A stretch of DNA of 64,000 bases from positions 62,001 to 126,000 of the forward strand of contig LNEC01000006.1 of the NCBI GenBank assembly GCA_001464035.1, read 5' to 3'. The notes beneath the pieces were generated by a model. That model saw only the letters and a program-made list of their open reading frames with translations, did not search any database and was not told the DNA's origin. Source of the stretch: Bradyrhizobiaceae bacterium Ga0074131 (GTDB lineage: Bacteria; Pseudomonadota; Alphaproteobacteria; Rhizobiales; Xanthobacteraceae). Made by a program: the position numbers and the translations under genes. Numbering within the stretch: the stretch's first letter is position 1; every line of letters starts with the position of its first letter. Shown in pieces: positions 3,914 through 20,491 of the stretch.

Positions 3914-5620
3914 ATGAGACCTGCCGGCAAAGGGCCACTCGATTCGCTCTACTTCCATTATCCGCACTTCCAGGCGCGGCACGTTCCCGAACTGGACGGC
4001 AACACAGCGCGGCACCCGGTGGTGATTGTCGGCGCCGGCCCGATCGGCCTGACCGCGGCATTGGTGCTGGCGCGGTACGGAATCCGCTGCGTGCTGCTCG
4101 ATCGCAAGGACACGTTTAACGACGGCAGCCGCGCGCTGTGCATCGCGCGGCCGAGCATGCATATCCTGGAGCGGATCGGGGCGGTCGCGCCGTTCCTGGA
4201 CAAGGCGCTGGGTTGGCGGTTCGGCCGCAGCTACTACCTTGGCGAACAGATTTTCCGGCTCGAAATGCCGCATCCCCCGGGCGAAAAATACCTGCCGATG
4301 TACAATCTGCAGCAGCAGTACATCGAGCAATATCTGCACGACGCGGTCGCGGCCTGTGAGCTCGTCGACATGCGCTGGCAGAGCGAGCTCACTGGCCTTG
4401 ATTGCGGCAATGACGGCGTCACGCTCAGCATCGCCTCGCCGGCCGGCGACTATCGCCTCGCGGCCGACTATGTGCTTGCCGCCGACGGCGCGCGCTCGCC
4501 GGTTCGCTCGCAGCTCGGTCTGCGCATGAAGGGCCAGAACTACGAAGGCAAATACGTCATCGCCGATATCCGCATGAACCATGATTTCCCGACCGAGCGC
4601 CGCGCCTTTTTCGAGCCGAGCGGCAATTCCGGCGGCACCGTGCTGATCCACAAGCAACCCGACAATATCTGGCGGGTGGACTATCAGCTCCGCGAAGGCG
4701 AGAGCGAGGACGAGGCCTTGCTCGAAGAAAACATCCGCGACCGGGTCGGCGCCATCCTTGGGGATATCGGCCACGATAAGCCGTGGGAACTGGAGTGGTG
4801 GAGCATCTATTCCGCCAACACGCTGTGCCTCGACGACTACCGCCATGGCCGGGTTTTCTTCATCGGCGATGCCGCGCATATTGTGCCGATTTTCGGCGTG
4901 CGCGGGCTCAATAACGGCTTGGCGGATGCCGACAATCTCGGTTGGAAGCTCGCGGCCGTGCTCAACGGCGAGGCGGATGAAGCACTGCTCGACAGCTATT
5001 CGCCGGAGCGTCGCGGCGCCACGCTCGACGTGTTCGCCAACGCGACCAAGAGCACCCGCTTCATGACCCCGCCGACGCGCGGCTGGCGGCTGGCCCGCGA
5101 AGCCGCGCTTTCGCTCAGCCTCAAGCATGAATTTCCGCGCGGCCTCGCCAATCCCCGGCAGATGCAGCCCTACACCTATTCGGAAAGCCCGCTGACGCCC
5201 TATCGGGATCGCGACGCCGATTTTACCGGCGGCCCGGCCATCGGCAGCGCCGCACCCAATGCCAGGCTCGGCGACGGCGGCTATCTCCTGGATCGCGCAG
5301 GCGACGGCATGACGGCAATACTGTTTTGCGATGGCGAGCCCGACGCCGAGCAGGCCGCGCTGCTGGCGCAGCTCGGCCCGATCGACCGGCGCTTTGTGGC
5401 CCTGCTGATTCAGTGCCGCGGTGCTTCGAGCAACGGTTCCGTGCCGACAGCGGCAGCGATCGCCGACGCGGATGGCGAAATCGCCCGCCTGTTCGATGCA
5501 CAGCCGGGCACGCTCTATCTCTTGCGCCCCGACCTGCACATTGCCGGACGCTGGAAGACCATCGTTTCCCACGAAATCCTGCGAACCGCCGGCCTTTGCC
5601 TGGGGAGAGCGATGCCATGA
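3914..5620 (+). CDS. FAD-dependent monooxygenase (aromatic hydroxylase family)
   Basis: VVIVGAGPIGLTAALVLARYG (GxGxxG) and GRVFFIGDAAHIVPIFGVRGLNNGLADADNLGWKLA. Confidence 0.88.
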   Translation: MRPAGKGPLDSLYFHYPHFQARHVPELDGNTARHPVVIVGAGPIGLTAALVLARYGIRCVLLDRKDTFNDGSRALCIARPSMHILERIGAVAPFLDKALGWRFGRSYYLGEQIFRLEMPHPPGEKYLPMYNLQQQYIEQYLHDAVAACELVDMRWQSELTGLDCGNDGVTLSIASPAGDYRLAADYVLAADGARSPVRSQLGLRMKGQNYEGKYVIADIRMNHDFPTERRAFFEPSGNSGGTVLIHKQPDNIWRVDYQLREGESEDEALLEENIRDRVGAILGDIGHDKPWELEWWSIYSANTLCLDDYRHGRVFFIGDAAHIVPIFGVRGLNNGLADADNLGWKLAAVLNGEADEALLDSYSPERRGATLDVFANATKSTRFMTPPTRGWRLAREAALSLSLKHEFPRGLANPRQMQPYTYSESPLTPYRDRDADFTGGPAIGSAAPNARLGDGGYLLDRAGDGMTAILFCDGEPDAEQAALLAQLGPIDRRFVALLIQCRGASSNGSVPTAAAIADADGEIARLFDAQPGTLYLLRPDLHIAGRWKTIVSHEILRTAGLCLGRAMP

Positions 5621-6361: not shown

Positions 6362-7921
6362 CTACGGCCTGATCGAGAAATTCGCCGGTGGGCCCGGCGT
6401 GCGCAGCGGTTCGGCGAGCCGTGCGAAATCGCACAGGAGTGATCGCGTCTTGCGCGGATCGACGACTTCCTCGACCCAGAATCGTTCGGCCGAGCGGAAC
6501 GGCGAGCGCAGCTTGTTGAGACGATCCTCGATCTCCTGCAGCTTGGCCTTCGGATCGTCCGCGGCGTCGATGTCGGCGCGATAGGCCGCCTCGATGCCGC
6601 CTTCCAGCGGCAGCGACCCCCAATAGGCTGACGGCCAGGCGTAACGCATCGAATAGCGGTTGGCGGGCTGATGCACGACGCCGGCGACGCCGAAGGCGTT
6701 GCGCACGATGATGGTGCACCAGGGCACGGTAGACTGGTTGACCGCGGCCATGGCGCGCACGCCGTGACGGATGGTAGCCGCCTTCTCGGCGTCGAGCCCG
6801 ATCATGAAACCCGGACAATCCATTAGATAGACCACCGGCAGGTGGAAGGTCTCGGCGAGGTCGACGAAGCGCACCACCTTCTGGCAAGCTTCCGCCGTCC
6901 ACGACCCGCCGTAGTGAAAGGGATCGCTAGCCAGCAGCATCACGGCGCGGCCGTCGAGCCGGGCGAAGCCGGCGATGATGGAGCGGCCGAAATTCGCGCC
7001 CATCTCGAAGAACGAATCCTTGTCGACCACCGCGTTGATGATGGGCCGCATCTTGTAGACCTGTCGGCGGTTGCGCGGCACCGCCTTCATCAGCGATTCC
7101 TCCGCGCGCTCTGGATCATCGTCACAGCCGATCGTCGGCGGCAGATCGAAAACCGACGACGGCAGATAAGAGAGAAAGCGCCTGGTGCAGGCAAACGCTT
7201 CCTCCTCGGTATCGACGGCATGATCAACGCCGCCGGCGCGGGTCTGGATATCGGCGCCGCCGAGTTCCCATTTGGTGAGATCCTGGCCGAGGCGCTTGAC
7301 GACGGGTGGACCCGCGACGAACATCGCCGAACTCTTGGTCATCACCGAATAATGGCTGGCAGCGAGCCGCGCTGCGCCGAGGCCCGCGACCGAACCGAGC
7401 CCGAGGCCGACCACCGGCACGCGGGCCATGTTCGCGATCGTGTACCAGTACCAGCGGGTGCCGCCGACGCCGCCGGGCAGATTGGCCGCCCCCTTGGTCT
7501 CGATGGTCTTCACCGAGCCGCCGCCGCCGGAGCCCTCGATGACGCGGATGATCGGCAGCCGGAAGTCGTGCGCCATCTCCTCGGCCATCAGCGGTTTCGT
7601 CGAGATCGACGCGTCGGCGGAGCCGCCGCGCACCGTGAAATCGTCGCCGACCACGACCACCGGCCGGCCGTCGATCCTGCCGCGGCCGAACACGCAGTTC
7701 GCAGGCGTCAAATGGGTAAGTTCTCCGCTTTCGCTGTATTCGGCAACTCCGGAAATCGCGCCGATCTCGTGGAAGCTGTTCTGATCGATCAGTCCGTCGA
7801 TGCGCTCGCGAACGGTAAGCCGGCCCTGGTCGCGCTGCCGCCTGACCTTGTCAACGCCTCCCATCTCGCGCGCGAACGCTTCGCGCCGGGCGAGCTCGTC
7901 GAGTTCCGGCTTCCAGGTCAT
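6362..7921 (-). CDS. biotin-dependent acyl-CoA carboxylase, carboxyltransferase (beta) subunit
   Basis: 519 aa; GGSADASISTKPLMAEEM, KTIETKGAANLPGGVGG, LMDCPGFMIGLDAEKAATIRHGVRA, SAYWGSLPLEGGIEAAYR. Confidence 0.9.
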   Translation of the reverse strand: MTWKPELDELARREAFAREMGGVDKVRRQRDQGRLTVRERIDGLIDQNSFHEIGAISGVAEYSESGELTHLTPANCVFGRGRIDGRPVVVVGDDFTVRGGSADASISTKPLMAEEMAHDFRLPIIRVIEGSGGGGSVKTIETKGAANLPGGVGGTRWYWYTIANMARVPVVGLGLGSVAGLGAARLAASHYSVMTKSSAMFVAGPPVVKRLGQDLTKWELGGADIQTRAGGVDHAVDTEEEAFACTRRFLSYLPSSVFDLPPTIGCDDDPERAEESLMKAVPRNRRQVYKMRPIINAVVDKDSFFEMGANFGRSIIAGFARLDGRAVMLLASDPFHYGGSWTAEACQKVVRFVDLAETFHLPVVYLMDCPGFMIGLDAEKAATIRHGVRAMAAVNQSTVPWCTIIVRNAFGVAGVVHQPANRYSMRYAWPSAYWGSLPLEGGIEAAYRADIDAADDPKAKLQEIEDRLNKLRSPFRSAERFWVEEVVDPRKTRSLLCDFARLAEPLRTPGPPANFSIRP

Positions 7922-8825
7922 TGCTTTCCTCCGATTTCAGGATCTTGTTGTTTTGGTTCGACACCGGAAGCGGTTTTCGGTCCAGCCGATTGCTGAAGAT
8001 GTCGCCCTCGGCGCCCTCGAGCATGCTGCCGACTGCCAAACCGAGATCGATCATTCGCGGGGCAACCTCCTTGTGCAGCCGTTTCTCGTCATACATCGCG
8101 GACAACAGGCCGATCGTCACCACCACGAAGGTCTGATACTGCGGCGACCAGATCGGCACCGCGAGACCGTTGATATGCGGGCTCCACAGACCGCAGGCAA
8201 CGACATAGCCGTGCTCTCCGAGGAAACGCCGGTTGGCTTCGATACGCGGCCGCAACACCTTGGCGCCGGCCGGAATCTCGCGCTCCATTTCGGCCAGCAG
8301 CGCGTCGCCGACATCAGCATCGAGCGCCGCCGTATAGGCATGGCCTGCCGCCGTGCTCGCCATCGCAATGCGGCTGCCGGTGCTTTCGTGCAGCCCCAGC
8401 GCATTGGCCGCTCGCGCGAACTCAAGATAAACGAGGTGGAAGCGATCGGGAATGACGAAGCCGACGGTGCCGGGCAACTGTTCGGCGACATCCTGCAGCC
8501 GCAGCCGGATCAGGTTGCGAAGCTGCAGGCCCCGCATCATCGAAGTGCTCATCGCCACGGCGCTGGGGCCGATGCGGTATTTCTGGTCGCGCGGCAGATA
8601 GACCAGCTGGCCCATCCGCGTCAGGGTGTGGGTCAGGCGCGACACCGTCGATCGCGGCAGCCCGCAGCGATTGGATATCTCGAGATTGCCGAGTCGCGCC
8701 TCGTGGCCCTCGAAACAGCGCAACACGTCGAACGCGCGCGACACCACCTGGATGACGTCGCCCTCGCCCGCGAGATCGCTGGCGAGCATTCCCTGCTTAC
8801 TGAGCCGTTCCGAGCGTCTTCCCAT
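7851..8825 (-). CDS. IclR family transcriptional regulator
   Basis: wHTH VVSRAFDVLRCFEGHEARLGNLEISNRCGLPRSTVSRLTHTLTRMGQL plus IclR effector domain; 3' end overlaps the carboxyltransferase start. Confidence 0.88.
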   Translation of the reverse strand: MGRRSERLSKQGMLASDLAGEGDVIQVVSRAFDVLRCFEGHEARLGNLEISNRCGLPRSTVSRLTHTLTRMGQLVYLPRDQKYRIGPSAVAMSTSMMRGLQLRNLIRLRLQDVAEQLPGTVGFVIPDRFHLVYLEFARAANALGLHESTGSRIAMASTAAGHAYTAALDADVGDALLAEMEREIPAGAKVLRPRIEANRRFLGEHGYVVACGLWSPHINGLAVPIWSPQYQTFVVVTIGLLSAMYDEKRLHKEVAPRMIDLGLAVGSMLEGAEGDIFSNRLDRKPLPVSNQNNKILKSEESNDLEAGTRRARPARSVRARDGRR

Positions 8826-8835
8826 GCGTTTTTCC

Positions 8836-8861
8836 ATTCCGTCAGGCGGAATAAAATTCCA
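8836..8861. promoter_or_regulatory. candidate IclR operator: ATTCCG-tcagg-CGGAAT-aaa-ATTCCA
   Basis: Three alternating ATTCC/GGAAT half-sites directly upstream of the iclR start. Confidence 0.5.
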
Positions 8862-8953
8862 CTTGCAGAACAAGCTACCCTAGGCAATCTGCGCCCACAA
8901 CAAAAAGCCGTTCGCAAGGGCATGTGTCCGTCAGACGGTCCCGGGAGAACGGA

Positions 8954-10568: not shown

Positions 10569-12641
10569 ATGGCTGCCTCAACCTCCGCCGTTTCTGAACG
10601 ACCGGCGAAACGGATCGAGTTCGCCGATCCGCATGGCAGCCTCGCCAATCTGCAGGAGGCCGAAGTCTCGCGGGCGCGGACCCTGCGGGGCGGCTGGCGC
10701 TGGGCGCTGATCGTCGCCACCGCAGCGACGATCCTGTTGTGCATCAACCAGCAATTCGCGCTGCGGTTCTTCGTCGGCTACACCCAGCTCAACACCGAAT
10801 ATTTCTACCTGCTGATCGCGCTGATGCTGCCATTCACCTTCCTGATCTTTCCGGGGTCGGCACGCTCGCCGCTTGAGCGCGTCCCCTGGTACGACGTCCT
10901 GCTGTTCGTCGTGACCTTTGCCGCCGCCATCGTGCTGATGAACAGCGTCCGCAAGGCCGCCGAGGCTGGTTGGGAATTCGGCGGCGCGCCGATGCCGGTA
11001 ATCGTCGCCGGCCTGGTGATGTGGGCCGTGCTGATGGAAGCGCTGCGCCGCACCGGCGGCTGGAGCCTGCTGCTCAGCGTGCTTCCCTTCACCGTTTACC
11101 CGCTGTTCGCCGACGAAAAATGGCTCGGCCCTTTCCGCGGCACCCAGTCGACCCTCGAACAGGCAACTTCGTATCATGTGCTGTCGGGCGAGAGCCTGCT
11201 CGGCATTCCGATCCAGGCCTTCGCCGACACCGTGATCGGCTTTCTGGTGTTCGGCACCGCGCTGATGATGACCGGCGCCGGCAAGTTCTTCATCAATCTT
11301 TCGTTCGCGATGTGCGGTACGTTCCGCGGCGGCGCGGCAAAAGTATGCATCTTCGCCAGCGGCCTGCTCGGCATGATGTCCGGCTCGATCATTTCCAACG
11401 TGCTGACTGCCGGCACCATGACCATCCCTGTCATGAAAAAGAGCGGCTTCCGCGCCTCCTATGCCGCCGCGATCGAGGCCTGCGCGTCGACCGGCGCCGT
11501 GCTGGCGCCCCCGGTGATGGGCGCGACCGCATTCGTGATCGCGCAATTCCTCAACGTCAGTTACGCCGAAGTCGCGCTGGCCGCGATCATTCCCGCGGCG
11601 CTGTTCTATATCGGCCTGTTCATGCAGGTGGACTCCTACGCCGCCCGGCACGGCCTCGAGGGCATTCCGCGGTCCGAGTTGCCGAGATTGATCGATACGA
11701 TCAAGGACGGCTGGTACTACGTTTTCGTCATCGCGCTGCTGGTCGTCATGCTGCTGTATTTCAAGCGCGAGAGCCACGCGCCGTTCTTCGCCACCGCCCT
11801 GCTGCTGGTGCTGAACCAGCTGTTCTCCAAGGAGACCCGCTGGACCCCGACGACGATCAACAAGTTTCTCGAGGTCAACGGCCGTACCTTCGTCGAACTG
11901 GTCGGTATCCTCGCCGGCTGCGGCCTGCTGATCGGCGCATTCTCGATGACCGGGGTGGTCTCCAGCCTCGCCAACGACCTGTTGCGCATCGCCGGCGACA
12001 ACGCCTTCCTGCTGCTCGTGATGTGCGCGTTCACCAGCCTCGTACTCGGCCTCGGGCTGACGACGACCGCCTGCTACATCTTCCTCGCCATCCTGGTGGC
12101 GCCGGCGCTGGAAAAGCTCGGTCTCAACAAGATGGCGGTGCACATGTTCATTTTCTACTGGGGCATGCTGTCGTCGATCACGCCACCTGTCGCGATCGCC
12201 TCGTTCGCGGCGGCGGGCATAGCCGGCTCGCCGGCAATGCGAACGGGCTGGGAATCGATGTGGGTCGGCAGCATCATCTATTTCATTCCCTTCTTCTTTG
12301 TGCTGAACCCGGCACTGGTGCTGCAGGGCGCCAGCCCCTATTTTGAAGGGCTCGGCCTGATGGCGCTGGCCGCGTTCGGCACCCTGTTCATCTGCGGCGG
12401 CATCCAGGGCTATCAGGCCTTCGTCGGCGATCTTCGTCGCGCCGGGATGATGGAATGGCCGCTGCGGGTGTTGCTCGTGATCGGCGGTTTTGTCACCGCG
12501 ACGCCGGGCGGCGGCATCAACCCGCTCTCGCAAATCCAGATCACGAGCCTCGGGTTGGCGATCCTGATCCCGACGGTGCTGGTGGCGGTGCTGCTGATGC
12601 GCCGGCAGCCTCTCGCACCGAGCCGGTTGCGCGCGCGCTGA
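10569..12641 (+). CDS. TRAP transporter fused permease (4TM/12TM)
   Basis: 690 aa multi-TM; GGAAKVCIFASGLLGMMSGSIISNVLTAGTMTIPVMKKSGF; ACASTGAVLAPPVMGATAFVIAQFL. Confidence 0.92.
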   Translation: MAASTSAVSERPAKRIEFADPHGSLANLQEAEVSRARTLRGGWRWALIVATAATILLCINQQFALRFFVGYTQLNTEYFYLLIALMLPFTFLIFPGSARSPLERVPWYDVLLFVVTFAAAIVLMNSVRKAAEAGWEFGGAPMPVIVAGLVMWAVLMEALRRTGGWSLLLSVLPFTVYPLFADEKWLGPFRGTQSTLEQATSYHVLSGESLLGIPIQAFADTVIGFLVFGTALMMTGAGKFFINLSFAMCGTFRGGAAKVCIFASGLLGMMSGSIISNVLTAGTMTIPVMKKSGFRASYAAAIEACASTGAVLAPPVMGATAFVIAQFLNVSYAEVALAAIIPAALFYIGLFMQVDSYAARHGLEGIPRSELPRLIDTIKDGWYYVFVIALLVVMLLYFKRESHAPFFATALLLVLNQLFSKETRWTPTTINKFLEVNGRTFVELVGILAGCGLLIGAFSMTGVVSSLANDLLRIAGDNAFLLLVMCAFTSLVLGLGLTTTACYIFLAILVAPALEKLGLNKMAVHMFIFYWGMLSSITPPVAIASFAAAGIAGSPAMRTGWESMWVGSIIYFIPFFFVLNPALVLQGASPYFEGLGLMALAAFGTLFICGGIQGYQAFVGDLRRAGMMEWPLRVLLVIGGFVTATPGGGINPLSQIQITSLGLAILIPTVLVAVLLMRRQPLAPSRLRAR

Positions 12642-12685
12642 TTGCGCGGCAAGACTGGAGGCGATGAAACAGCCGCCTCCTGCCT

Positions 12686-12877
12686 TTGGCGCCGCGCCTA
12701 CTTCGTGGGCTGGCCGATGTCTCCGCCGCCGCCCACGAGATAAGCCTGCCGGATTTCGAACGCTTCCGCACGCAGCATCCGAGGGTCGGCGAATGGACCA
12801 TGCGCAACCTCGCGCGACTGCTGGCCGACCGCCTGATCGTCGCCGATACCAGGGTGGATCTGCTGACGGCTAACTGA
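12686..12877 (+). pseudogene. remnant of the C-terminal part of a cyclic-nucleotide-binding domain
   Basis: ISLPDFERFRTQHPRVGEWTMRNLARLLADRLIVADTRVDLL resembles the cNMP-BD end (LSxxxFxxLxxxHPxLxxxLLxNLAxxLxxRLR); no upstream beta-roll. Confidence 0.5.
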
Positions 12878-13908: not shown

Positions 13909-14268
13909 TCACTTCACCTTCTCGAAATACGGCACCAGCCGCCCGGCGAACGGCGCGAAATGCGCCGTGACCTTGTCGCCGATGGCAAGCTCATGGTCGC
14001 CATGGGCCATCATGCGAAAGCCCTCTATGGTATCGACCAGCACGAGGTTGTAGGGCACATGCGCTCGGGTCTCCGGCGTGGCGGCGCGGCACACCAGTGA
14101 GGTCGCGTACACCGTCCCCTGCCCGCTGGCGCGCTTCTCTACCAGATCCGGCGCGCCGCAGGCGACGCAGAAGCTGCGGCGGAAATACTGCAAGGTCCCG
14201 CAGGCGGCGCAGGATTGATAGACGATCGCTTCGGTGCCCGTGGTCCAGTCGGCGGGTTTCTCGCTCAT
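13909..14268 (-). CDS. DUF35 OB-fold/Zn-ribbon protein
   Basis: YQSCAACGTLQYFRRSFCVACG Zn-ribbon and GQGTVYATSLV OB-fold; ATGA overlap with upstream thiolase-like gene. Confidence 0.88.
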   Translation of the reverse strand: MSEKPADWTTGTEAIVYQSCAACGTLQYFRRSFCVACGAPDLVEKRASGQGTVYATSLVCRAATPETRAHVPYNLVLVDTIEGFRMMAHGDHELAIGDKVTAHFAPFAGRLVPYFEKVK

Positions 14269-15401
14269 CGCACACGCTCCAGGAACATGCTGACATGCGA
14301 CGACAGCACGCCGCCGTCGCCGTGCAGCAGCGCGACCGAGGCGTCGCGCACCTGGCGCGCTCCCGCCCGTCCCGTCATCTGCAGGTGGGTTTCGACCAGA
14401 TGCGCCATCGCGCCGCCGACACCGCAATGGCCGTAACTCAGGAGACCGCCATGGGTGTTGAGCGGCATCGCGCCGTCGCGCCCGAAATGTCCTGATCGTA
14501 CCCGCGCCGCCGCTTCGCCGCGCCCGGCGAGCCCGAGGTCCTCCAGCAGCATCGCCAGCGTGATGGTAAAGCTGTCATAGACCGCGGCATAGCGCACGTC
14601 GGATATCGCGACACCGGAGGCCTGCTTTGCGCGCGCGATCGATATCTCCGCGCCGAGTTCGCTCAAGGCAGGAGCCGCGGTGACGTGCTGATGGGTATGC
14701 GCCTGGGCGCAGCCCCGCACCCGCACGCCAGCCGCCCCGGTGCGCTCGCGACTGATCACGAACGCCGCACCGCCGTCGGACACCGGACAGCAATCCAGAA
14801 GTTTCAAGGGCATCGCCACCGGCTTCGAGGCCATCACGTCGGCGACGGTGATGGCGTCGTGGAATTGCGCGCCCGGATGGGTCAGCGCGTGCGTTCGCAT
14901 CAGCACCGCAAATTCGGCGAGGTCTTCCTGCGTCACGCTATATTCGTGCATGTAGCGCGAGGCGACGAGGCCGTAATAGGCCGGGATGGTTGGCCCCAGC
15001 GGCACCTCGTAGTCGGGATGGCCGACCTGCGCCAGCGCCAGGATCGAGGCGTCGCGGCTCTGCCCGGTCAACCGGTTCTCACCCGACACGACCAGCACAT
15101 GCCTGACAATCCCGGCCTCGACCAGATGATGCGCCAGCATGGTCATGGCCAACCCCGTGGCGCCGCCGACCTGCACGGCGTGAGCATAGGCCGGCTTGAT
15201 GCCGAAATGCTCGGCGAACACGGTCGCCAGCATGATGTGCGGCGAAACCGTCGAATAGCCGCAGAGCACGCCGTCGATCTCGCCGCGCTTCAGCCCGGCG
15301 TCCGATATCGCCAGCTGCGCCGCCTGGCTCATCAGGTCGAGTGAGGACGAGCCGTCGTGTTTGCCGTATGCCGTGAGGCCAACGCCGGTAATGAAGCTCA
15401 T
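14265..15401 (-). CDS. thiolase-like protein lacking the canonical nucleophilic Cys
   Basis: Thiolase fold (MSFITGVGLTAYGKHDG; NTHGGLLSYGHCGVGGAMAHLVE) with AVQVGGATG in place of NxCxSG. Confidence 0.85.
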   Translation of the reverse strand: MSFITGVGLTAYGKHDGSSSLDLMSQAAQLAISDAGLKRGEIDGVLCGYSTVSPHIMLATVFAEHFGIKPAYAHAVQVGGATGLAMTMLAHHLVEAGIVRHVLVVSGENRLTGQSRDASILALAQVGHPDYEVPLGPTIPAYYGLVASRYMHEYSVTQEDLAEFAVLMRTHALTHPGAQFHDAITVADVMASKPVAMPLKLLDCCPVSDGGAAFVISRERTGAAGVRVRGCAQAHTHQHVTAAPALSELGAEISIARAKQASGVAISDVRYAAVYDSFTITLAMLLEDLGLAGRGEAAARVRSGHFGRDGAMPLNTHGGLLSYGHCGVGGAMAHLVETHLQMTGRAGARQVRDASVALLHGDGGVLSSHVSMFLERVR

Positions 15402-15415
15402 GTCAGCCCTTCATC

Positions 15416-16582
15416 TCAATACGACTTCGGCATGCCCAGCACCTTCTCGGCGATGAAGCTGAGAACGAGCTGCGGGCTGATCGGGGCGATGCGCGGGATC
15501 AGAGATTCCCGCAAGTAACGCTCGACATGATACTCCTTGGCATAGCCGAATCCGCCATGGGTCATGACCGCCTGCTCGCAGGCCAGAAAACCGGCTTCCC
15601 CGGCGAGGTATTTCGCGGCATTGGCCGCCGGACCGCACGGCAGGCCCTGGTCGTACTGCCAGCCGGCTGACATCACCATCAGCCACGCCGCTTCCAATTC
15701 CATCCAGTTCTTCGCCAGGGGATGCTGGATCGCCTGGTTCTTGCCGATCGGACGGTTGAACACGATGCGGCTTTTCGCGTAATCCGTAGCTCGCTTCAGC
15801 GCGACCTTGCCGAGCCCGACCGCTTCGGCGGCGATCAGGATGCGCTCCGGATTCATCCCGTGCAGGATGTATTCGAAGCCGCGGCCTTCCTCGCCGATCC
15901 TGTCCTCGACCGGTATTTCGAAATTCTCAAAGAACAACTCGTTGGAGTCGACGGCCTTGCGGCCCATCTTCTCGATTTCGTGCACCGCGACGCGTTTCTT
16001 GTCGAAGTCGGTGTAGAACAGGCTGAGGCCGTGGGTCGGGTTCTTCACTTCCTCCAGCGGCGTGGTGCGCGCCAGTAGCAATATTTTGCTGGCGACCTGC
16101 GCCGTCGAGATCCAGACCTTTTGGCCGTTAACGACGTACTTGTCCCCCGACCGCACCGCACGGGTCTTCAACTGCGTGGTGTTCAGCCCGGTATTCGGTT
16201 CAGTAACGGCGAAACAAGACTTGTCGCTCCCATCGACGATCGGCGGCAGCATGCGGTGGCGCTGCTCGTCGGAGCCGAACACCACCACGGGATTGAGTCC
16301 GAACACGTTCATATGGACGGCGGAGGCGCCGGACATGCCGGCGCCGGATTCGGCAATTGTCCGCATCATGATCGCGGCATCGGTGATGCCCAGGCCCGAA
16401 CCGCCATACTCCTCGGGGATGCAGATGCCGAGCCAACCGGATTCCGCCAGCGCCCGATGGAAGTCGCCGGGGTAGCCGCCCTCCTTGTCCTTCTTCAGCC
16501 AATAGGCGTCGTCGAAACGGGTGCAGATCTTGCCGATCGCATCGCGGATCGATTCCTGGTTGGCGGTGAGTGCGAAATCCAT
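15416..16582 (-). CDS. acyl-CoA dehydrogenase
   Basis: MDFALTANQESIRDAIGKICTRFDDAYWLKKD; CFAVTEPNTGLNTTQLKTRA; QAVMTHGGFGYAKEYHVERYLRES. Confidence 0.92.
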   Translation of the reverse strand: MDFALTANQESIRDAIGKICTRFDDAYWLKKDKEGGYPGDFHRALAESGWLGICIPEEYGGSGLGITDAAIMMRTIAESGAGMSGASAVHMNVFGLNPVVVFGSDEQRHRMLPPIVDGSDKSCFAVTEPNTGLNTTQLKTRAVRSGDKYVVNGQKVWISTAQVASKILLLARTTPLEEVKNPTHGLSLFYTDFDKKRVAVHEIEKMGRKAVDSNELFFENFEIPVEDRIGEEGRGFEYILHGMNPERILIAAEAVGLGKVALKRATDYAKSRIVFNRPIGKNQAIQHPLAKNWMELEAAWLMVMSAGWQYDQGLPCGPAANAAKYLAGEAGFLACEQAVMTHGGFGYAKEYHVERYLRESLIPRIAPISPQLVLSFIAEKVLGMPKSY

Positions 16583-16586
16583 GGTC

Positions 16587-17798
16587 TCAACCCCTCGTGG
16601 CGCCGGGCGCCGCTATGGTCACGGCATCGCGCACCAACGCGGCGATCTCGTCGGCGGAGAAGCCGGCTTCTTGAAGAATTTCCTCGGCGTGTTCGTTCAG
16701 ACGCGGCGCCAGCCGCGCCGGTTCCGCTGCCGTGTCCGACCAGGTGGCGGAGACCTTCATGCTGCGGATTTTGCCCTCAGTCGGATGCTCGACCACGGGG
16801 AAGAAACCGGTCGCGACCAGATGCGGGTCCTGCAGAATGCTCTCGAGATCGTGCATCGGCATCACGGGCACGTCGGCCTTGACCAGCAACTCGGTCCATT
16901 CGGCGGTGGTCCGGGTCTCGAAGACGCGCGCAAGCTCAGCATAAACCGTGTTGATGTTGGTGGCGCGTCCGGCAAACGTCGCGAACTTCGGGTCGTTGCG
17001 CAGGTCGTCGCGGCCGGTCGCCTCGAAGAACGCGTTCCATTGCTTGTCGTTGTAGACGATCACGCAGATATAGCCGTCGGAGGTTTTGTATGGCCGCCGG
17101 TCGCGCGACAGGTGCCGCGCGTAGCCGCCCTTGTCGAGCGGCGGCTCGTAGGTCAGGCCGCCCATGTGATCGCCCATCACGAATCCCGCCATGGTCTCGA
17201 ACATCGGAATATCGACCCGCTGGCCGCGGCCGGTGCGGTCGCGATGCACCAGGCTGGCGCAGATCGCGCCGACTGCGGTCAGACCCACGATGCGGTCGAC
17301 CAGTGCGTTCGGCACATAGCGCGGCGTGTCGTCGCCGCCGACCGCCATCAGATGCGCCAGCGCCGATCCGCCCTGGATCAGGTCGTCATAGGCGGGTTTT
17401 GCGGCATAGGGCCCGTCCTGGCCAAAGCCGAACACGCCGGCATAGATCAGCCGCGGATTGATCTCCTCGACCACGTCATAGCCGAGTTGCAACCGCGCCA
17501 TCGCCTGCGGCCGGACGTTGTAGACCAGCACGTCGGCGGTCGCGATCAAGCGCAGCACGGCGTCGCGTCCCGCCGGCTTCTTCAGATCGAGGCAGATCGA
17601 GCGTTTGCTGCGGTTTGTGTTGAGAAATACCGGCCCCATGCCGGGATGCCGGGTCGGGCCGATCTGCCGCGTCACGTCGCCATCGGGTGTTTCGATCTTG
17701 ATGACGTCGGCGCCGTAGTCGCCGAGCATCTGGGTGGCATAGGGCCCCATCAGCACGGTCGTCATGTCGATGACCTTGATGCCCTCGAGTGGTCCCAT
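16587..17798 (-). CDS. CaiB/BaiF family CoA-transferase
   Basis: MGPLEGIKVIDMTTVLMGPYATQMLGDYGADVIKIETPDGD. Confidence 0.92.
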   Translation of the reverse strand: MGPLEGIKVIDMTTVLMGPYATQMLGDYGADVIKIETPDGDVTRQIGPTRHPGMGPVFLNTNRSKRSICLDLKKPAGRDAVLRLIATADVLVYNVRPQAMARLQLGYDVVEEINPRLIYAGVFGFGQDGPYAAKPAYDDLIQGGSALAHLMAVGGDDTPRYVPNALVDRIVGLTAVGAICASLVHRDRTGRGQRVDIPMFETMAGFVMGDHMGGLTYEPPLDKGGYARHLSRDRRPYKTSDGYICVIVYNDKQWNAFFEATGRDDLRNDPKFATFAGRATNINTVYAELARVFETRTTAEWTELLVKADVPVMPMHDLESILQDPHLVATGFFPVVEHPTEGKIRSMKVSATWSDTAAEPARLAPRLNEHAEEILQEAGFSADEIAALVRDAVTIAAPGATRG

Positions 17799-17932
17799 GG
17801 CGCGGTTTGCTCCCGATGCAACGGTTTTCACCGCGCGATTTCGTTTCTCGGGCCTAGTAACGGCAGCGCGTCGGGAAGATCAAGGGCGTGGCGCGTATGG
17901 GCGTATGCGCTGGTGAGCGAAAAGAACTCAGC

Positions 17933-18085: not shown

Positions 18086-19255
18086 TTACTTCGCAGGTTC
18101 CAGCACGGACACGTAATTGGCGACCGCCGCACCGCCCATGTTGAAGATGCCTGCGAGCTTTGCATTCTTGATCTGCATGCCCTCCGGCGCCTGGCCAACC
18201 AGCTGCATCGCGGTCATCACATGCATGGAGACGCCGGTGGCGCCGATCGGGTGGCCCTTGGACTTCAGGCCGCCTGACGGATTGACCGGCAGCTTGCCGT
18301 CCTTCTGGGTCCAGCCTTCCTTGATGGCGCGGGCGCCCTGCCCGCGCGGCGTCAGGCCCATCGCTTCATACTCGATCAGTTCGGCGACGGTGAAGCAGTC
18401 GTGGGTTTCGACAAAGGACAGATCGGACAACTTCACGCCGGCCGACTGCAGCGCGCGCTGCCACGCCACGGTGCAGCCTTCGAACTGCAGGATGTCACGC
18501 TTCGACATCGGCAGGAAATCCTGTGCATGGGCGGTGGCGCGGATGCTGACCGCCTTGCCCATCGTCTTGGCGGTCTCGGAATCGGTCAGCACCAGTGCCG
18601 CGGCGCCGTCCGACACCAGCGAGCAGTCGGTGCGCTTCAGAGGACCCGCGACGAACGGATTTTTCTCGCTCTCGGAGCGGCAGAACTCGTAGCCAAAATC
18701 CTTGCGCATCTGGGCATAGGGATTGGCGACGCCGTTCTTGTGGTTCTTGGCGGCGATCATCGCCAGCGCATCGGACTGGTCGCCATATTTCTGGAAATAG
18801 GCCTGCGCGATCTTGCCGAAAACGCCTGCAAAGCCGCCGGGGGTGTCGCCGTCCTCGGGCAGATAGGACGCGCGCAGCAGGTTGCGGCCGATTTCGGCCG
18901 GCGGCGTCCGCGTCATCTGTTCGACGCCGACCACCAGCACGATCTTGGCCGCGCCCGCGTCGATCGCCCGGATGCCCTGATGCACCGCGGCCGAACCGGT
19001 GGCGCAGGCATTCTCTACCCGCGTCGCCGGCTTGAACCGCAAGGCGGGGTCGGCCTGCAGTACCAGCGAGGCGGTGAAATCCTGCGGCGAGAAGCCGGCG
19101 TTGAAATGCCCGAGCACGATTTCATCGACATCGCCAGCGGAAATGCCGGCGTCGGCCAGCGCGTCGGTCGCGACCTTCACCACGAGGCTCTCAACGGTTT
19201 CGGTATCGAACTTGCCGAACGGCGTGTGCGCCCATCCGACGATGCTGGCTGTCAT
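18086..19255 (-). CDS. thiolase / acetyl-CoA acetyltransferase
   Basis: MTASIVGWAHTPFGKF; VENACATGSAA nucleophile motif; NPSGGLKSKGHPIGATGVSM. Confidence 0.9.
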   Translation of the reverse strand: MTASIVGWAHTPFGKFDTETVESLVVKVATDALADAGISAGDVDEIVLGHFNAGFSPQDFTASLVLQADPALRFKPATRVENACATGSAAVHQGIRAIDAGAAKIVLVVGVEQMTRTPPAEIGRNLLRASYLPEDGDTPGGFAGVFGKIAQAYFQKYGDQSDALAMIAAKNHKNGVANPYAQMRKDFGYEFCRSESEKNPFVAGPLKRTDCSLVSDGAAALVLTDSETAKTMGKAVSIRATAHAQDFLPMSKRDILQFEGCTVAWQRALQSAGVKLSDLSFVETHDCFTVAELIEYEAMGLTPRGQGARAIKEGWTQKDGKLPVNPSGGLKSKGHPIGATGVSMHVMTAMQLVGQAPEGMQIKNAKLAGIFNMGGAAVANYVSVLEPAK

Positions 19256-19504
19256 GGTCGTTCTCCCTGTCTTGCTCGGAGACTTTGTAGCCCATCGGCG
19301 GCCGGACTTCACGCCGGTTTCAGCGATTTCATGGCCCCGATCGCACATGGCCGTTATGCCGGTTCAGTTGACGGACCGATATCGGCGGCCGGGCACAGCC
19401 GGGAACTCGCCCGCCGCGAACACGGGCGGTGTCAGCGGTGTTTGTTTCATCCCTTCAGCGGCGGCCCCAAGAACGGTACGCCGCTCGCAATGATGAAGGC
19501 AGAC

Positions 19505-20491
19505 TCAGGCGACGAACTTGCCGCCCAGCTCGTCCTCGATGTGAATCCTGATGATGTCATCAAAAGTCTGTTCGGCGGTGGTGAAGCCGAGCTGGCGGGC
19601 CCTCTTGGCGTCGAAGTTACGCGGCCAGCCGGCGACAATGCTGATGATGAACGGATCGGGCTCGCGCTTGATCCGCGCCGCCACCTTGTCGCCCGCCACC
19701 CGCTTCAGCGCCGCGATCTCCTCGCCGACGGTCGCGGAGAGGCCGGGCATGGTGAGGTTGCGGCGCGCGCCGGCCGCGTCACTGTCCATCGTCGCCGCAT
19801 GCAGCAGGAAATTCACGGCGGAACGCGGCGAGGCATGCCAGTGGCGGACGTCTTCCGATACCGGCAGGACCGCTTCCTTGCCGGCCAGCGGCTCGCGCAA
19901 AATGTTGGAGAAGAACCCCGACGCCGCCTTGTTGGGCAGCCCAGGGCGAATGCAGATGGTCGGCAACCGGATGCCGATGCCGTCCAGGAAGCCGCGGCGC
20001 GAATAATCCGCCAGCAGCAGTTCGCCGATCGCCTTCTGGGTGCCGTAGCTTAGCAGCGGTGTGTGGAAGAACTCGTCGCCGATCGCGTCCGGAAACGGTG
20101 CGCCGAACACGGCGATCGACGAGGTGAAGACGATGCGGGGCTTGTAGCCGCCGCCAATCAGCCGGACGGCGTCGAACAGCATCCGCGTGCCGTCGAGATT
20201 GATGCGGTAGCCCTTGTCGAAATCGAGCTCGGCCTCGCCGGAAACGATCGCCGCGAGATGAAATATCACGTCGGGCCGGTCCGCCACCAGCGGCTCCGCG
20301 GCGCCCGGCACGGCGAAGTCGCAAGTGACGGTATCGACCGGAAAGCCAGGGTTCGCGGGCTTTGCCGGAGCGACCACGTCCTGCAGCGTCATGCGTGTGA
20401 TGTCGCGCTTGCCGAGGCGGCCATCGCGCAGCAGCCGCTCGGTCAGCTTGCGGCCGACCATGCCGGCGGCGCCCAGAACCAGAATGTGCAA
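19505..20491 (-). CDS. NAD-dependent epimerase/dehydratase, D-erythronate dehydrogenase (DenD)-like
   Basis: MHILVLGAAGMVGRKLTERLL; YGTQKAIGELLLADYSRRGFLDGIGIRLPTICIRPG. Confidence 0.8.
   Translation of the reverse strand: MHILVLGAAGMVGRKLTERLLRDGRLGKRDITRMTLQDVVAPAKPANPGFPVDTVTCDFAVPGAAEPLVADRPDVIFHLAAIVSGEAELDFDKGYRINLDGTRMLFDAVRLIGGGYKPRIVFTSSIAVFGAPFPDAIGDEFFHTPLLSYGTQKAIGELLLADYSRRGFLDGIGIRLPTICIRPGLPNKAASGFFSNILREPLAGKEAVLPVSEDVRHWHASPRSAVNFLLHAATMDSDAAGARRNLTMPGLSATVGEEIAALKRVAGDKVAARIKREPDPFIISIVAGWPRNFDAKRARQLGFTTAEQTFDDIIRIHIEDELGGKFVA

Follow-up and report, generated by a model that had tools for sequence, protein, structure and literature searches.

Many bacterial proteins are called thiolases or acetyl-CoA acetyltransferases from their fold alone. 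Among the closest described relatives of the protein studied here, the aldolase CtSal has a glycine at the position of the thiolase nucleophile and uses Tyr302 of a YDCY motif as the base that opens the β-hydroxyl, the corresponding base of Ltp2 is Tyr294 of YDHF, and the C304S variant of CtSal is inactive (PMC12329534). TbSLP, which also lacks the cysteine and carries YDCF, decarboxylates malonyl-CoA very slowly (0.005 per s), an activity that CtSal does not have (PMC12329534). In the ibuprofen pathway, a transposon mutant of ipfD does not grow on ibuprofen (PMC9195938), and release of propionyl-CoA has been assigned to IpfDE (PMC9195938; PMC11347016), which we ourselves read as retro-aldol chemistry. 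Inspection of IpfD on plasmid pIBU218 (L296:13639-14826) showed that it too is without the cysteine and carries YDAF. Elsewhere on this plasmid (L296:938-4556), a second ‘lipid-transfer protein’ has YDHF, and its neighbours encode an OB-fold protein, an enoyl-CoA hydratase and CaiB.

Here we analysed a thiolase-fold protein, THL2, and its DUF35 partner, encoded in a 64,000-nucleotide stretch of DNA (the window) from Bradyrhizobiaceae bacterium Ga0074131. The reading frames bear out the gene coordinates and the ATGA overlap given in the first-pass annotation of the window: the DUF35 gene starts at 14268 (ATG AGC GAG) and shares ATGA with the stop of THL2.

Table 1 Features of the THL2–DUF35 locus (window coordinates)
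Feature	Position	Strand	Evidence
THL2, Cys-less SCP2-thiolase-fold protein, 378 aa, predicted C–C lyase subunit	14265..15401	-	Pfam, AlphaFold2 and Foldseek, motif, tree
DUF35 partner, zinc ribbon and OB fold, 119 aa	13909..14268	-	Pfam zf-ChsH2, OB_ChsH2_C; reading frame
Codon of Gly80, aligned with the nucleophilic Cys of thiolases	15162..15164	-	Alignment with THL1 and solved thiolases
YDSF motif (Tyr275–Phe278) in place of HDCF	14568..14579	-	Alignment; role of Tyr275 as base by analogy (PMC12329534)
His325, retained GHP-type His, predicted proton donor	14427..14429	-	Invariant in 29 orthologues; role inferred
DUF35 zinc ribbon, C-x2-C-x10-C-x2-C	14158..14211	-	Sequence
CaiB, CoA-transferase family III, probable CoA-activation step	16587..17831	-	Pfam CoA_transf_3; census 54/55
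ACAD, acyl-CoA dehydrogenase, optional member	15416..16582	-	Census 16/55
THL1, canonical SCP2-type thiolase, Cys and HDCF	18086..19255	-	NCBIfam PRK07516, 704.8 bits; census 53/55

THL2 has the SCP2-thiolase fold by Pfam, AlphaFold2 and Foldseek. It matched Thiolase_C_1 (E=2.6e-47) and Thiolase_N (E=2e-11), and its partner matched OB_ChsH2_C and zf-ChsH2. The AlphaFold2 model, for which the input was an alignment of THL2 with 28 related loci, reached a pLDDT of 85.8 and a pTM of 0.89, with residues 113–137 poorly ordered. The structural comparison with Ltp2 and SCP2-type thiolases that had been proposed for this protein placed it among these folds: the best Foldseek matches in the PDB included 6esq, 9myr (Sal), 4u4e, TbSLP and 6ok1 (Ltp2), with TMq of about 0.83–0.90, and BbsAB (7pxp) was also among these SCP2-type and DUF35-linked neighbours. 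By sequence, the nearest solved chain was 4u4e (~35%).

The active site of THL2 departs from that of an active SCP2-type thiolase at two places. The residue aligned to the nucleophile is Gly80, in AVQV-G79-G80-ATG, so that the cysteine whose presence the first-pass annotation had named as grounds for rejection is indeed missing, and HDCF is replaced by YDSF. The His of the GHP position is kept as His325. The change from HDCF to YDSF, which is linked to the loss of the cysteine and had been overlooked in that annotation, is a more telling feature than the loss alone. Across 29 orthologues, reaching down to 54% identity, Gly79 and Gly80 never vary, indicating that the loss did not arise by chance; Tyr275, Ser277, His325 and numerous further polar positions are equally invariant in this set, which argues that THL2 is not a decayed enzyme. 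The same invariance makes it very unlikely that THL2 is without catalysis of its own and only binds CoA esters or serves the neighbouring enzymes as a scaffold, a role with which the absent nucleophile would agree. A thiolase using another cysteine as its nucleophile (C204, C205 or C326, all present in THL2) is extremely improbable: PRK06158, ‘acetyl-CoA acetyltransferase’, is the top NCBIfam hit, with 280 bits that fall short of the cut-off of 421, but all three cysteines lie off the nucleophile position, C326 is Ser in several relatives and the DCC pair also occurs in the aldolase Ltp2. The true thiolase of the neighbourhood is THL1, which has the normal NACATG noted for it earlier and, in addition, HDCF and GHP.

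We then followed both sites across the family, using members from the collected loci, among them all Thiolase_C_1 proteins from nine whole genomes, reduced at 85% identity and aligned with six solved sequences (141 sequences in all, a sample that leans towards relatives of THL2). The cysteine occurred together with HDx in 25/141 and its absence together with YDx in 113/141; among these aligned homologues, none combined the cysteine with Tyr and none without the cysteine kept the His of HDx. Three sequences fell outside both patterns, two of them divergent and the third a type-1 thiolase (NEAF). The 141 sequences are not independent, and on the tree the state of the cysteine has a parsimony minimum of 3 changes. 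Among members with enough flanking sequence, a DUF35 gene adjoined 99 of 101 Cys-less Tyr proteins as against 4 of 20 with the cysteine. The GHP-position His was kept in 81 of the 85 Cys-less members with Ser or Ala in YDxF, and Tyr took its place in all four Cys-less YDHF members. The window's own genome holds three DUF35 genes, each beside one of three YDxF thiolase-fold proteins, and no DUF35 gene was found beside the Cys-type paralogues inspected in it. The two further Cys-less YDxF/DUF35 pairs of this genome (L227, G000:C6:386092; L234, G000:C17:80326) have a Cys one residue past the nucleophile position (GGCSF and GGCSY, respectively). By a two-residue rule (no Cys and YDxF, with a DUF35 neighbour), likely C–C lyases can be told apart from thiolases in any genome.

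In a quick maximum-likelihood tree of 62 sequences, calculated with the trait columns left out, Sal, Ltp2, 4u4e and THL2 fell into one Cys-less clade (SH-aLRT 99). THL2 formed its own group there (10 rows, SH-aLRT 99), apart from Sal, Ltp2 and 4u4e, and is therefore neither Sal nor Ltp2. It nevertheless shares with the Sal/Ltp2/IpfD group the Gly coupled to the Tyr of YDxF and the adjoining DUF35 gene, besides the clade with Sal and Ltp2. No steroid degradation genes were recognised among the labelled ORFs of the window neighbours and 100 related loci. Literature searches on the clade of THL2, on DUF35–CaiB in Bradyrhizobium and on operons of OB-fold and thiolase genes returned nothing on the function of the clade, and we know of no activity for any YDSF member. 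Identities of about 30-35% to the characterised members are too low for carrying their reactions over to THL2.

Because Gly and Tyr are common to Sal, Ltp2 and IpfD, a retro-aldol lyase is the best reading of THL2. Biochemical or genetic evidence exists for these three proteins: they cleave a C–C bond instead of carrying out ordinary thiolysis, and the residue that they have in common is the Tyr, not the residue two positions on (Cys, His or Ala), which argues for a lyase despite the Ser of THL2. From this sequence logic, and by analogy, we consider it likely that THL2–DUF35 is a thiolase-fold lyase for the retro-aldol cleavage of a β-hydroxyacyl-CoA. The first-pass annotation had suggested a C–C lyase of the aldolase type that works with DUF35 and has a CoA thioester as substrate; that part of the suggestion holds up as a sequence-based prediction, but the steroid analogy behind it proved too narrow, as IpfDE acts outside steroid degradation.

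In the mechanism that we propose, an imported carboxylic acid would be converted to its CoA thioester by CaiB, or by an ADP-forming acyl-CoA synthetase in relatives, and an acid without a β-hydroxyl would receive one from an acyl-CoA dehydrogenase and a hydratase. Tyr275 would remove the β-hydroxyl proton, the C–C bond would break and the resulting acyl-CoA enolate would be protonated, most likely by His325, as opposed to Cys in Sal or the second Tyr in Ltp2. This would release a short acyl-CoA, either acetyl- or propionyl-CoA, together with a ketone or aldehyde. DUF35 would close and shape the substrate cleft, and THL1 would act as a true thiolase at a different step. Since CtSal C304S is inactive, Ser277 would not take the role of the Cys, and the proton donor of THL2 must differ; the His kept in Ser/Ala YDxF members, as against the Tyr of YDHF, points to His325, and our assignment of it as the acid is a guess from conservation.

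Two other reactions would suit a thiolase fold without its cysteine. THL2 might be a retro-Claisen hydrolase, with Tyr275 and His325 activating water to split a β-ketoacyl-CoA into a carboxylic acid and an acyl-CoA; the lost Cys with a kept GHP His would allow this, and THL1 points to β-ketoacyl-CoAs in the pathway. We regard it as unlikely, because the Tyr switch fits known aldolases and we know of no characterised thiolase-fold member that does so. Decarboxylation of a malonyl-CoA-type substrate has a precedent of the same fold in the Cys-less TbSLP (PMC12329534), but the rate of that enzyme is very low, CtSal is without the activity and the CoA-activation genes for imported acids do not call for it, leaving it a very small probability.

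Orthologues of THL2 (87-93% identity) were present in 57 of 61 Bradyrhizobium genomes, the window's own included, and occurred patchily elsewhere, in Tardiphaga, Methylobacterium, Comamonadaceae, Alcaligenaceae, Rhodobacterales and on an actinobacterial plasmid. A synteny census (same strand, up to about 5 kb) covered 55 Bradyrhizobium loci and 43 clade loci from outside the genus that had 3.5 kb or more of downstream sequence; for the latter, the THL1 count was set aside as cross-matching. The Bradyrhizobium loci had DUF35 in 55, CaiB in 54, THL1 in 53, ACAD in 16, an AMP-type ligase in 5 and an ADP-forming acyl-CoA synthetase in 1, and the other loci had DUF35 in 42, the ADP-forming synthetase in 33, a TctC-type binding protein in 21, an IclR regulator in 21 and CaiB in 2. 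With CaiB in one group and the ADP-forming synthetase in the other, the steady partner of THL2 is the formation of a CoA thioester. The synthetase had not been foreseen in the first-pass annotation; none is encoded in the window, and a search of the window's genome found no orthologue (best 31-35%).

The fullest arrangement, in Tardiphaga and one genome of the same family, comprises DenD, KdgK, Eda, THL1, AMP ligase, CaiB, ACAD, THL2 and the ADP-forming synthetase, of which the window gene set looks like a reduced form. We take DenD, KdgK and Eda, with the sugar ABC genes, to be a separate sugar-acid unit, not part of the THL2 route. At 18086-20491 of the window, DenD directly precedes THL1: KdgK (PfkB kinase) and Eda (KDPG aldolase), which nearly all of 18 other Bradyrhizobium loci have between these two genes, are missing. 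The window (12641-12870) is also without a conserved glutaminase/STAS/cNMP-type ORF (~620 aa) that stands between TRAP and CMD in 18/18 of those loci.

A single pathway of CaiB, ACAD, thiolase and TRAP genes, together with a carboxylase, had been envisaged for the window. CaiB and THL1 are conserved in Bradyrhizobium, but ACAD is optional, and the TRAP genes, found in 10/18 Bradyrhizobium stretches of 20 kb, have no conserved operon link. The carboxylase, like TRAP, proved more loosely attached than had been described: the window encodes a lone acyl-CoA carboxyltransferase subunit beyond the TRAP genes, and it too shows no conserved operon link. The synteny census thus led us to drop ACAD, TRAP, carboxylase and THL2 as one pathway. 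In Bordetella and Achromobacter, paired biotin carboxylase and carboxyltransferase genes occur near THL2; these resemble a separate cluster for methylcrotonyl-CoA carboxylase (leucine), and their match to the window subunit is only ~29%. The window subunit lies with an IclR regulator at 6362-8873, with no biotin carboxylase alongside, and a FAD-dependent aromatic-type hydroxylase is encoded at 3914-5620.

More distant family members adjoin genes for MaoC and enoyl-CoA hydratase, just as Sal has Shy for a neighbour; no hydratase gene was linked to THL2 in the Bradyrhizobium loci. The core is small, with activation, lyase and DUF35 but neither a dehydrogenase nor a hydratase conserved, which suggests that the acid already bears a β-hydroxyl in many hosts. 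In several Burkholderiales (L162-L172, L103), genes for SDR, ACAD, an APH-type phosphotransferase and an AMP ligase come after THL2, DUF35 and the synthetase, a combination reminiscent of 4-hydroxyacyl-CoA catabolism. Near THL2 in Methylobacterium and Burkholderiales (L147, L143, L212, L102, L103), genes of the AtuA family, of the cyclase family (PF04199) and of PRISE-like type recur, although not constantly, a hint, and only a lead, towards cyclic or terpenoid acids as substrates.

THL2 probably belongs to an unmapped route of carboxylic-acid degradation. It is quite possible, if short of likely, that THL2–DUF35 represents a third, undescribed catalytic type of thiolase-fold C–C lyase, with a Tyr base and, instead of Cys or a second Tyr, the kept thiolase His as acid. 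It would then be central to an unrecognised CoA-dependent route in which acid activation leads straight to retro-aldol cleavage, a route that nearly all Bradyrhizobium share and that has a patchy presence in Burkholderiales and other bacteria. Should the two-residue rule be correct, a class of annotations would be mended, new CoA-ester aldolases would become available for biocatalysis and a conserved, unnamed degradation step of soil and root-nodule bacteria would become directly testable.

Compared with the known systems, THL2 shares with CtSal–CtShy(DUF35) (9myr) the fold, the Gly, the Tyr base in YDxF and the DUF35 partner, but the two are ~32% identical, CtSal has YDCY with catalytic Cys304 and Gln352 in place of Ser277 and His325, the zinc site of the pair is C3H1 instead of the C4 of the THL2 partner, and CtSal belongs to a steroid context and a separate clade; Ser277 in place of the catalytic Cys rules out THL2 as Sal, the bile acid C5 side-chain aldolase. 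Ltp2–ChsH2(DUF35) (6ok1), the steroid C3 side-chain aldolase, has in common the fold, the Gly, the Tyr base and a C4-type DUF35 partner, but at ~33% identity it differs in YDHF and a second Tyr (Tyr344) at the place of His325, in steroid context and in clade, and YDSF with His325 likewise rules out this identity. IpfD–IpfE is also Cys-less with YDxF and an adjoining OB-fold gene, and IpfD is genetically required; it is ~30% identical, acts on an aromatic substrate and has no kept His in a GHP-like motif. The putative thiolase 4u4e of Sphaerobacter thermophilus resembles THL2 in lacking the Cys, in YDSF and in the kept His, but falls in a different YDSF/YDAF clade. The archaeal acetoacetyl-CoA thiolase–DUF35 complex (6esq) shares the fold and the DUF35 partner, but is a thiolase, with both Cys and HDCF in place, and the likeness to the benzoylsuccinyl-CoA thiolase BbsAB lies in the fold and the DUF35 partner. 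THL2 is an uncharacterised branch of the known Cys-less lyase group, not a new class of system.
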